Assembly (NCBI GenBank): GCA_027063065.1
Contig: JAMOSO010000055.1
Location: 1 to 64,000 of the forward strand
Length of the DNA stretch: 64,000 nucleotides
Direction of reading: 5' to 3'
Origin: Planctomycetota bacterium
GTDB taxonomy: Bacteria > Planctomycetota > JAMOSO01
The notes below the pieces were generated by a model that saw nothing but the letters and a program-made list of their open reading frames with translations, was not told the origin of the DNA and did not search any database. Each line of letters begins with the position of its first letter. The first letter of the stretch is position 1. A program made the translations under genes and the position numbers. Positions 8,313 to 62,784 of the stretch are shown one piece after another.

Positions 8313-10568
8313 ATGGCTAAACATTTACCGCTTATTGCTGATATGAATGAATTATTAGCATTGTTTCATAAATCGACAAATCTTCAGGCTTTTTTGCAAG
8401 AGATGGTTGAATTGGTTGCAAGGCATATTTCTACGCAGGTAGCTTCTATTTATTTTTTAGATGATGAACAATTGGTTTTAAAGGCCAATCATGGTTTAAA
8501 TGAAAAAGCAGTCGATGTATTACATATATCTATCAACGAAGGATTGGTTGGTAAGGCTATGTTGGATTTATGCCCTGTATTAGATAATCAGGCAAGTAAA
8601 AATCCCCATTTTAAATTGATTGATGGTTTGGATAGTCAGTTATACGATTCCTTTTTGGCTGTGCCAATTGCCAGGGGTTTAAAACGTATAGGTGTATTGG
8701 TTGTTCAGCGTGATATTACACATCCATTTGATGAATATGACACCTTGGCTTTAAGCGCTATTACATCTCAATTAGCTATGCTAATTGAGCAGACTCATTT
8801 GTTGATGAGCGCTGGTTTGCCAGTTAAAAAAACTAAGAGATGTTCAGAAATAATCTCCCGTAAGGTTGATGTTAAAACTGCTTCTCGTGGGCGAGCTTAT
8901 GGTAAATTGTCCCATGGTCGCAAGCAGTTGTGGCCACCAAGTTTGCCAAAAACTTTGCCAGAATTTGGTTTGGAAGATTTTAAAATCGCGATGGGTTTGA
9001 CGGTCAGTCAGTTGGAAAGGTTGCAAAAAAGAGTTGAAGAAACATTATCAGATGTTGCATCCTTAATTTTTACCTCTCATTTGTTGATGCTTAAAGATCC
9101 CGCTTTTGGCGGTAGAATGATTGATGAAATTCATGCTAATGTACATCCAGCCCAAGCTATTTGTAAGGTTGTAAATGAGTATCGTGGTATTTTTGCTAAA
9201 AGTCCTAATCCTGCTATGCAAGAAAAAGTACAGGATATAAGTGATTTGGGTGCGCGCTTAATTAATAATTTATTAGACGAACCAATGGCAGAGTTAAATG
9301 CTAATCACGGTATAGTGGTCGCAAGGGATTTGGCTCCATCGGATATTTTGACCTTATCTGCTGAAGGGGTTGAAGGTTTGGTTTTAATTGGCGGTGGCGT
9401 TACATCACATGTGGCAATTTTGGCTCGTTCGTTGCATATTCCATTGGTTATTGCTGATGAGAATAGTTTGTTGGATTTGCCAAATGGGGCAGAATTATTA
9501 ATTGATAATGGAGTGTTATTGATTAAACCAGATATGCAAGCTATTGCCGAGTATCATCAGCGGGTTAAAAATGATGGTTTAAATGATGACAAAATAAAGT
9601 GTGTAGGTCCTTTGTTTACTAGTGATGCAGTGTCGGTCAAATTGGACATTAATGTAAATTTAGTTACAGATGTTGAATACGCGAAGGATTATCATCCAGA
9701 TGGTATTGGGTTGTATCGTACAGAATTTCCATTTATGTTGCGTTCTGCATTGCCGACTGAAGAAGAACAATATCAAATATTTAGTCAGGTAGCACAGGGG
9801 GTTGGTAAAAATCCATTGACGATTAGGACTTTAGATGTTGGTGGTGATAAAATGATGGCTTATTACGAATCACCTAAGGAAGAGAATCCTTTTTTAGGTT
9901 TGCGTTCCATACGTTTTGCTTTAAAGCATCGCGAGTTATTTAGACATCATTTACGTGCTATCTTGCGAGCAAGTGTAGGTAAAGATTTAAAAATAATGTT
10001 TCCTGTTATTTCATCTATTGAAGAAATACGTGTAGCAAAACGTGCGGTAGTTGAGGCTATTGGTTCTTTGGTGGCTGAAGGGGCACCTTGCAATAGTAAG
10101 CCAAAGCTTGGCATTATGATTGAGGTGCCGTCAGTTTTGGCGTTGATTGATGAAATAGCTGCTGAGGTTGACTTTTTTTGTTTGGGAACAAATGATTTTG
10201 TGCAATACTTGCTATGCGTTGACCGTACAAATGAGATGGTGGCGGATTTTTATTGTTCGCATCATCCTGCTGTAGTTAGAGCTTTAAATATTGTGGTGAG
10301 AGCCGCTGATAAAGCTGGTATAGAATTATCGGTTTGCGGGGATATGGCACATAATGGGGCGTATATACCTTTGCTTATAGGTTTAGGTGTTAGGCGCTTA
10401 AGTGTTGACGGGGCTTATTTGTCATCGACGCGCAAAATTGTCGAAAGCATTAATTGTGCTAAGGTTAAAGTTATGGCGCAAAAGGCGTTAGAGTGCACGG
10501 TTATAGATGAAATAGCCGACTTGTTGAATATAGAAGAACGCTATCATATTGCTTGTAAACATATTTAG
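8313..10568 (+). CDS. ptsP: GAF-domain phosphoenolpyruvate-protein phosphotransferase (nitrogen-PTS-type enzyme I)
   Basis: The 751-residue protein has a GAF sensor domain (about 15-165), then a full enzyme I: the N-terminal HPr-binding region, the phospho-His swivel domain with GGVTSHVAILAR (His366), and the C-terminal PEP-binding TIM barrel with GLYRTEFPF, TLDVGGDK, FCLGTNDFVQY and the catalytic Cys675 in SVCGDMA. It takes phosphate from PEP and passes it to an HPr/NPr-type carrier; in other bacteria the GAF version senses nitrogen status and serves a regulatory PTS. All catalytic residues are present. No HPr or EIIA gene lies nearby. A second, membrane-anchored enzyme I is at 60.6 kb. The start has no ribosome site; see the promoter entry. 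Confidence 0.9.
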   Translation: MAKHLPLIADMNELLALFHKSTNLQAFLQEMVELVARHISTQVASIYFLDDEQLVLKANHGLNEKAVDVLHISINEGLVGKAMLDLCPVLDNQASKNPHFKLIDGLDSQLYDSFLAVPIARGLKRIGVLVVQRDITHPFDEYDTLALSAITSQLAMLIEQTHLLMSAGLPVKKTKRCSEIISRKVDVKTASRGRAYGKLSHGRKQLWPPSLPKTLPEFGLEDFKIAMGLTVSQLERLQKRVEETLSDVASLIFTSHLLMLKDPAFGGRMIDEIHANVHPAQAICKVVNEYRGIFAKSPNPAMQEKVQDISDLGARLINNLLDEPMAELNANHGIVVARDLAPSDILTLSAEGVEGLVLIGGGVTSHVAILARSLHIPLVIADENSLLDLPNGAELLIDNGVLLIKPDMQAIAEYHQRVKNDGLNDDKIKCVGPLFTSDAVSVKLDINVNLVTDVEYAKDYHPDGIGLYRTEFPFMLRSALPTEEEQYQIFSQVAQGVGKNPLTIRTLDVGGDKMMAYYESPKEENPFLGLRSIRFALKHRELFRHHLRAILRASVGKDLKIMFPVISSIEEIRVAKRAVVEAIGSLVAEGAPCNSKPKLGIMIEVPSVLALIDEIAAEVDFFCLGTNDFVQYLLCVDRTNEMVADFYCSHHPAVVRALNIVVRAADKAGIELSVCGDMAHNGAYIPLLIGLGVRRLSVDGAYLSSTRKIVESINCAKVKVMAQKALECTVIDEIADLLNIEERYHIACKHI

Positions 10569-60600: not shown

Positions 60601-62784
60601 ATGAAATATGAGGGAAAAGTAAATAAATTATACGAGAAAGCACAAAGTGTTAATGGATATTTTGTGGGTATATCTATTCGTTGGAAAATTTTAGCAGCAT
60701 TTACTTTGGTTTTTATAACACCTATTGCATTGCAATCATTGGGCGTAGATTTAATTACATATATTGTTTTCGGATTGCCGTTAATTTTAGTTATCGGTTT
60801 ATATTCGAGTCATCGCATTTTAACCACGATTAAAAATTTAGAGTCAATTATTAATAATCTTGCGGGTCGTAAAGTTGAAAATATATCAAAAAAAACCAAA
60901 GGCGATGAATTACATAATGTTATAGCTTCGCTAGATGGTATGGTAAATACGTTAGAAAGTAGCTATTCTAAAAAGAAAAAACAAAGCAAAAAGCAAAGCA
61001 AAAAACAAAGCAAAAAGCAAAAGATTGTCGAGATAAAAAAAGACGATCAAAAAATAAGACAGAGTTTTCATGCCAGCTTATCCACAGGACGCAGTGTTAG
61101 AGGCGATATATATATATTGCCCAGTCGAGAGACTGATGTTGGTAATTTTGGATTTAATTTAACCAGACGTGAAAGTTTGTTTTTATTGCACCAAAGTATC
61201 CCAGAAGTTAAACGACAGCTAAAAGAATTGCGTGATTCTGCTATTTTAGGTGAAAGCGAAAAGGGGATTATTGATTTTCAATTAACACTCATACAGGATA
61301 AAACTTTAATAGATGGTATAGCTTCATGTTTAAATGATGATATGCCATTGATGGGTGCTATAGAGACAACTTTTGGTGCTTTTGTGCATAGGCTACAGCG
61401 TTCAAAAAATACATATATACAGGGTAGAGTTCCAGATTGTACCGATTTAATGTTGCGCTTATTGCAAGTTATACAAGAAAGAATAGGGCATGATGCTTCA
61501 AGTCGATATGCAGATGCTAAGGGTAAAATAGTTTATACCAAGCAAATATATCCAAGTGATGTAATCGCATTGCATAAAATAGGCATTAAGGGCATTATTA
61601 GTCTTGAGGGTACGCCATCTTCGCATGCATCTATTTTGTTTCAATCTTTTGAATTGCCATCTGTAAGCAACATTGATTTCTCTGGAACAATGCCTTCAGG
61701 TGTTGATGTTATGATAGATACAGCACGAAAACAAATGATAACAAACCCTAGTGTTGAAGATATTAAGCGCTTAGATGTTGATAATTATTCTTTTCAAGGC
61801 AAAATCATCAAAACACCTGTTTCTTTGCTTTCTGGACAGCAAATTTGGGTAAGTGCCACCATTAATGTGGCATCAACTGCACAAAAGGCATTTGAAGCTG
61901 GTGCGGATGGCGTTGGATTATTTAGATCTGAAATGAGTTTTATAGGTCGAGAAACTATCCCCACAGAGGAAGAGCTTTATGAAGAGTACTCTCAAATCCG
62001 TGAGGCATTTGGTGACAAACCTATTGTGTTGAGGATGCTTGATATTGGTGGTGACAAATTGCCTATCACACAGGATCACAAGGAGGAAAATCCTTGTATG
62101 GGTTCTAGATCTATGCGTTTGCTTTTAAAACAGCCAGATATTATGCGACGCCAATTAAGGGCTATGTTACGAGCGGCTAACGAATTAACAACTATTATTT
62201 TCCCGATGGTCAATGGGTGGCACGAGTTGGAATTAATTCAAGCTAGAATTGACACAATAGCTAGCGAGTTATCTGATTTGGAAGCTCCAAATGCATCTAA
62301 GGTAGAGTATGGTTTGATGGTTGAGGTTCCGGCGATTGTAGAGCGGTTTGAAGATTATGTTGATAGTTTTAAGCATTTTAATTTAGGCACCAATGATTTA
62401 GCCCAATATACTTTAGCTGCCGATAGAAATAATATGGAAGTTGCCAATTTTTTTGACCCAGTGCATCCATCTATGTTGTCCATGATTCATAAAGTTACAA
62501 CTATAGCGGCACAGCGTGGCAAAGAGGTTAGCTTATGCGGTGAAATGGCTGCTAATTTATGGCTTACTCCATTATTGGTAGGTTTAGGTGTTAGGGAATT
62601 TTCGGTATCTGCAAACTTAATACCACCAATAAAACACTTATTGAGCAATTTAGAGTTAAAAACATGCAATGAATTGGCAAATAGAGCATTATCTTGTCGT
62701 AGTTTAGATCAAGTGCGCGAAGTAATTTCAGAATATAACGCTAAATATAAAGAATCAAAAATTATTGATGAATCAAATATATAG
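60601..62784 (+). CDS. membrane-anchored PTS enzyme I-like protein with HAMP-like segment
   Basis: The 727-residue protein starts with two transmembrane helices (about 28-46 and 53-70) joined by a short loop, followed by a HAMP-like linker (ILTTIKNLESIINNLAG, GDELHNVIASLDGMV, about 76-120) and a Lys/Gln/Ser tandem repeat (126-141). The rest is a complete enzyme I: HPr-binding helical domain (ESLFLLHQSIPEVKRQL), swivel domain with GTPSSHASILFQ (His342), and PEP-binding barrel with GVGLFRSEMSF, LDIGGDKLP, NLGTNDLAQYTLAADRN and Cys646 in LCGEMAAN. All catalytic residues are kept. Classical enzyme I is soluble, so a membrane form may sense or couple PTS phosphorylation at the envelope. It lacks the GAF of PtsP. 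Substrate carrier unknown. Confidence 0.88.
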   Translation: MKYEGKVNKLYEKAQSVNGYFVGISIRWKILAAFTLVFITPIALQSLGVDLITYIVFGLPLILVIGLYSSHRILTTIKNLESIINNLAGRKVENISKKTKGDELHNVIASLDGMVNTLESSYSKKKKQSKKQSKKQSKKQKIVEIKKDDQKIRQSFHASLSTGRSVRGDIYILPSRETDVGNFGFNLTRRESLFLLHQSIPEVKRQLKELRDSAILGESEKGIIDFQLTLIQDKTLIDGIASCLNDDMPLMGAIETTFGAFVHRLQRSKNTYIQGRVPDCTDLMLRLLQVIQERIGHDASSRYADAKGKIVYTKQIYPSDVIALHKIGIKGIISLEGTPSSHASILFQSFELPSVSNIDFSGTMPSGVDVMIDTARKQMITNPSVEDIKRLDVDNYSFQGKIIKTPVSLLSGQQIWVSATINVASTAQKAFEAGADGVGLFRSEMSFIGRETIPTEEELYEEYSQIREAFGDKPIVLRMLDIGGDKLPITQDHKEENPCMGSRSMRLLLKQPDIMRRQLRAMLRAANELTTIIFPMVNGWHELELIQARIDTIASELSDLEAPNASKVEYGLMVEVPAIVERFEDYVDSFKHFNLGTNDLAQYTLAADRNNMEVANFFDPVHPSMLSMIHKVTTIAAQRGKEVSLCGEMAANLWLTPLLVGLGVREFSVSANLIPPIKHLLSNLELKTCNELANRALSCRSLDQVREVISEYNAKYKESKIIDESNI
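60976..61020 (+). repeat. 12-bp tandem repeat, 3.75 copies, coding for KKQS units
   Basis: AAAAAACAAAGC (60976-60987) is followed by two further copies with A/G changes and a partial fourth (61012-61020). It encodes the linker between the HAMP-like part and the enzyme I core. The unit is a multiple of three, so copy changes alter linker length without shifting frame. Confidence 0.9.

Follow-up and report, generated by a model that had tools for sequence, protein, structure and literature searches.

In this study, we describe an enzyme I (EI) that appears to be an integral membrane protein with two transmembrane helices. It is encoded on the + strand of the window, i.e. the whole stretch of 64,000 nucleotides that was analysed, by an open and intact ORF at positions 60601-62784, and its 727 amino acids combine a putative transmembrane hairpin and a HAMP-like stalk with what is most likely an intact, catalytically competent EI. 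We consider it probable that this membrane-anchored EI is one of three points at which PEP feeds a regulatory phosphorelay of the EIIA-Ntr type, all of which would share one HPr. Known EIs are soluble single EIs, GAF-EIs and fusions with HPr or EIIA, whereas an EI behind a membrane hairpin is new as far as the open-licence literature goes, in which no description of a membrane-bound EI or a HAMP-EI was found. A 2008 survey of EI and HPr covers single EIs, GAF-EIs and fusions with HPr and EIIA, and the word ‘transmembrane’ is absent from its main text (PMC2405797). Translation may start at the ATG at 60601, or possibly at a GTG at 60664 (codon 22), which is where the homologue described below begins in the alignment; neither is preceded by a clear Shine-Dalgarno sequence, and a promoter scan stayed at chance level.

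The C-terminal 570 residues form a complete EI according to both TIGR01417 (371 bits against a cut-off of 341.7, spanning residues 200-708) and Pfam, where PEP-utilizers_C (PF02896, 278 bits), PEP-utilizers (PF00391, 32.5 bits) and PEP-utilisers_N (PF05524, 33.7 bits) each exceed their cut-off. Together with residue mapping, PF05524 and PF00391 place the HPr-binding alpha and phospho-His subdomains of the N-terminal half at residues 155-395 (61063-61785, +), while PF02896 and Foldseek place the C-terminal PEP-binding and dimerisation barrel at residues 401-713 (61801-62739, +). The best sequence matches are solved EI structures, 2HRO (2.2e-74) and 2HWG (5.6e-73). Furthermore, an AlphaFold (AF2) model, built from a three-sequence alignment and of modest quality with an overall pLDDT of 60, has a C-terminal barrel that matches EI C-domains in Foldseek at target-normalised TM-scores of 0.84-0.88. 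Alignment with E. coli PtsI and 57 other EIs identified H342 as the phospho-acceptor histidine (H189 in E. coli) and C646 as the equivalent of C502, and the PEP-binding and catalytic residues R296, R332, R358, E431, N454/D455 and R465 are present as R442, R478, R503, E575, N598/D599 and R609. All catalytic and PEP-binding positions checked are conserved, in agreement with the earlier note, which had read an apparently intact EI with His342, Cys646 and PEP-binding motifs from this ORF. At the HPr interface, Y122, R126 and D129 (E. coli numbering) are kept, and H76, a histidine in 52 of the 57 other EIs, is a glutamine. The replacement of R195 (E. coli), the arginine following the active-site histidine, by Q or E was considered as a family-specific change and dropped, as this position varies in other planctomycete EIs too. 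PtsI (TIGR01417; PDB 2HWG, 2HRO) has the same EI domains and catalytic residues, at ~30% identity over the EI part, but is cytoplasmic, whereas the EI of the window carries ~150 extra N-terminal residues with a predicted transmembrane hairpin and stalk.

This extension opens with two hydrophobic segments at residues 21-39 (Kyte-Doolittle (KD) value 1.83) and 47-65 (2.34), and we place the putative hairpin at residues 22-70 (60664-60810, +), with TM1 at ~28-46 and TM2 at ~50-69. Between residues ~28 and 69 there is a single internal charge (D50), and the loop comprises only a few residues. Hydropathy is the basis for these helices, and KD scanning alone yields some false positives in soluble EIs; however, the best 43-residue window averages 1.76 (at residue 24) and 1.77 in the homologue, against a maximum of 1.28 in 58 EIs without a hairpin, which makes the hairpin pair outliers among 60 EIs and upholds the two N-terminal transmembrane helices that had been proposed. 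The AF2 model has helices at residues 21-46, 51-89 and 95-125, at low confidence (pLDDT 26-57 at the N-terminus). Positive charge on both flanks, together with the short loop, suggests a topology in which both ends of the hairpin face the cytoplasm. The earlier note had also envisaged an envelope signal as the input. This finds no counterpart in the protein, which has no outside sensor domain and a hairpin loop of few residues, so that the membrane interior, the cytoplasm or a partner are left as sources of any input.

Other long EIs (670-710 aa) were considered as further carriers of transmembrane extensions, and those examined lack an N-terminal hairpin. One of ~675 aa from another member of the Planctomycetota (L064) opens with an HPr domain (GLHARPA motif) and is an HPr-EI fusion; two more EIs of ~675 aa from this phylum that lie near it in the tree (L052 and L053) are probably HPr-EI fusions too. 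Such multiphosphoryl transfer proteins (HPr-EI, FruB, DhaM) are likewise multidomain EIs, but they have HPr or EIIA fused, whereas Pfam finds EI domains only in the membrane-anchored EI, and its fusion partner is a membrane module.

A full-length homologue with the same hairpin is encoded by Planctomycetota bacterium isolate nwagbin3 (G035; JADGBV010000066.1). The two proteins share 39% identity over 703 aligned positions, with 33% in the hairpin, 26% in the HAMP-like segment and 30-50% in the EI. A profile of both, run against 392 sampled Planctomycetota genomes, returned the EI of the window (1453 bits), the nwagbin3 protein (1352 bits) and no other, the next-best match (331 bits) starting within the EI part. 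With the N-terminal module alone, the same 392 genomes yielded these two proteins and none further. The nwagbin3 protein was again returned by a scan of 84,980 species genomes with exact peptide patterns, which reach close relatives only. In plasmids, tblastn gave matches to the EI part only, none spanning 80% of the query; viral contigs gave no match to the membrane-anchored EI, and it is absent from one other genome of the order to which nwagbin3 belongs (G004). The fusion is real and rare in Planctomycetota, and as to whether proteins of this kind are already described or common, a question raised with the first reading of this gene, the answer on both counts is no within the open-licence literature and the 392 genomes. 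In a tree of 60 EIs, the two proteins group together as a single clade (SH-aLRT 100), which sits on a long stem of 2.0 changes per site, and their divergence suggests that the fusion is apparently old. This clade is placed weakly near the GAF-type EIs. EI-Ntr/PtsP proteins (GAF-EIs), weakly nearest in the tree, resemble the membrane-anchored EI in having a regulatory-type N-terminal extension and a genome with EIIA-Ntr outputs, but theirs holds a GAF domain, which Pfam does not find here, where a membrane hairpin and a HAMP-like segment take its place. The nwagbin3 genome also encodes a second, very divergent EI (contig C147; L086/L084), which has the longest branch of the tree (3.06) and an in-frame TAG within the matched stretch.

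By eye, residues 71-123 (60811-60969, +) look HAMP-like, a helix-connector-helix segment that reads as AS1, connector, DEL (DE motif at D102-E103) and AS2. The Pfam HAMP model (PF00672) does not match the membrane-anchored EI, even at E<=10. However, when hhalign was run against seven chemoreceptor HAMP regions encoded by the same genome, it aligned the protein in the correct register with a score of 27.6; the probabilities given by hhalign lie at 44-60%. Shuffling the post-TM columns 200 times gave at most 21.4, and 100 full shuffles did not reach the score either. The post-TM part alone is less clear-cut, as 2 of 200 shuffles attain its score. When 147 proteins of the same genome were scanned with the HAMP profile, the membrane-anchored EI came first (29.7 versus 23.8 for the runner-up), and among the leading matches it alone aligns across TM2 and both helices. 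The nwagbin3 homologue by itself was outside the top 15 in the HAMP profile scan; its segment is degenerate, with the DE..TLE positions conserved. Because of the Pfam miss, the less clear-cut post-TM part and a homologue that does not stand out by itself, we would call this segment HAMP-like at best, and not HAMP. As such, the HAMP-like segment reported in the earlier note is partly upheld, by a weak profile-profile resemblance. Signalling proteins of the TM-HAMP type (chemoreceptors, SiaA-type phosphatases) likewise place a HAMP-like stalk of two helices after a transmembrane helix, and a weak match to the TM-HAMP region of SiaA was found (E 0.043). The protein studied here differs from them in its EI output, the lack of an outside sensor domain and a HAMP unrecognised by Pfam. 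In the host, HAMP or HAMP-like segments occur in at least seven chemoreceptor-like proteins (L068-L074; contigs C13, C21, C48, C49, C69 and C71), one of which (L074) has a C-terminal segment that, judged by eye, is hemerythrin-like.

Between stalk and EI lies a low-complexity, Lys-rich linker (residues 124-154; 60970-61062, +), which had been noticed before and is indeed there. Its DNA includes a short imperfect tandem repeat of 12/24-base units at 60972-61021, the length of which could change by slippage, and the linker is not conserved in the nwagbin3 homologue (11% identity over 19 aligned positions).

The host genome (2.13 Mb, 71 contigs) is 90% complete, so that absences are provisional. 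It encodes three EIs, namely a classical ptsI, absent from the earlier note, that adjoins ptsH on contig C18, a GAF-type EI at 8313-10568 (+) of the window, and the membrane-anchored EI at 60601-62784. The second of these is the separate GAF-type paralogue at 8.3 kb that was pointed out earlier: a soluble, PtsP/EI-Ntr-like protein, it has GAF_2 and PEP-utiliser domains, and in the tree it falls among the GAF-type EIs that other planctomycetes encode. The accompanying idea that the two EIs feed different carriers is at odds with the gene content, since in this 90%-complete genome one HPr gene was found for three EIs (contig C18, with a HARPA motif). Three EIIA-Ntr outputs are encoded on contigs C41, C39 and C53 (L078:8758-9483, L079:8202-8879 and L080:5960-8155), each with an intact PH active-site motif. 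Two of them carry an N-terminal HTH_17 DNA-binding domain, and the gene for one of these adjoins a separate, CBS-bearing Na/H antiporter gene. The third forms the C-terminus of a Na/H-exchanger-TrkA_N antiporter, the sole membrane PTS protein seen besides the anchored EI. Neither a PTS_EIIC permease (PF02378) nor the HPr kinase HprK (PF07475) was found in the 90%-complete genome. Judged from this inventory, the host has a PTS of the regulatory kind, which matches what has been reported for the Planctomycetales as a whole (PMC13104625). The genes around 60601-62784 (gpsA, plsY, a DTW protein, a GFO/IDH/MocA oxidoreductase and cydB/cydA) are not PTS-related and are not shared with nwagbin3, and in these two genomes no conserved neighbours tie the gene to HPr, EIIA or a transporter. 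Placement beside a transporter, also put forward in the earlier note, is thus not borne out, with no PTS_EIIC found and the antiporter-EIIA on another contig.

So how would a membrane-anchored EI act as one of three entry points to this relay? The two-helix hairpin would fix the protein in the inner membrane with its N-terminus and EI body in the cytoplasm, and the HAMP-like coiled stalk would connect this anchor to the EI. The EI would autophosphorylate on H342 from PEP and pass the phosphate to the single HPr of contig C18, which would in turn hand it to the three EIIA-Ntr outputs, i.e. the cation/proton antiporter-EIIA and the two DNA-binding HTH-EIIA proteins. By way of the anchor, phosphate would enter the relay at the membrane, and dimerisation or activity may also be modulated by the stalk.

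How much the N-terminal module does beyond this can be read in several ways. A minimal hairpin with a few-residue loop, followed by a variable Lys-rich linker, would suit a protein whose hairpin has no role other than to hold EI at the membrane, with the stalk as a passive spacer. We regard this as a real possibility, although the two proteins agree at 26% of the positions of the HAMP-like segment, DEL and TLE among them, which points to some constraint there. EI is an obligate dimer whose activity is controlled by dimerisation, and HAMP domains switch histidine kinases and chemoreceptors between conformations. The protein might then be a true signalling enzyme, in which hairpin and HAMP sense a signal from the membrane or a partner (e.g. 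lipid state, redox or proton-motive force) and switch EI between active and inactive. Dimerisation control suits a coiled-coil input, the TM2-AS1-connector-AS2 register fits the chemoreceptor HAMPs of the same genome (first of 147; 0/200 shuffles), and GAF-EIs offer a precedent for an N-terminal regulatory module on EI (PMC13104625). On the other hand, an extracytoplasmic sensor domain is absent, the HAMP falls under Pfam detection and is degenerate in the homologue, and the long, poorly conserved linker means that rigid coupling is not evident, which leaves this reading on the unlikely side. Unlikely, too, and slightly more so, is a receptor-like EI whose HAMP-type stalk gates PEP-dependent phosphorylation and which competes with the two soluble EIs for one HPr.

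Alternatively, the anchored EI could use an acceptor other than HPr, or be a PEP/pyruvate sensor, instead of feeding the relay. Its deep, separate clade and the H76 to Q change, along with other shifts in the HPr-facing helices, would be in line with this. However, the protein has retained its alpha subdomain and most of the positions that contact HPr, the host has a single classical HPr, and we consider this alternative doubtful. Finally, a misassembled gene fusion, or hydrophobic segments that are not membrane helices, would be conceivable for a fragmented assembly and a scale that gives false positives in some soluble EIs, but such an artefact is highly improbable, as a 39%-identical homologue with the same fusion and a conserved hairpin occurs in an independent MAG and the hydropathy of the hairpin is above that of all 58 other EIs.

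PEP enters the PTS through EI, which the literature searched describes either as cytoplasmic or as a soluble fusion. A membrane EI in a genome in which no PTS permease was detected would demonstrate that the entry of PTS phosphate can be confined to the membrane, and possibly gated there too. With three EIs for a single HPr, this 2.1 Mb genome furthermore offers a compact, testable case of several inputs converging on one phosphocarrier. Should the receptor-like reading turn out to be true, the PTS would be the output of a membrane-anchored sensor, informing gene regulators and a cation antiporter of the state of the membrane.
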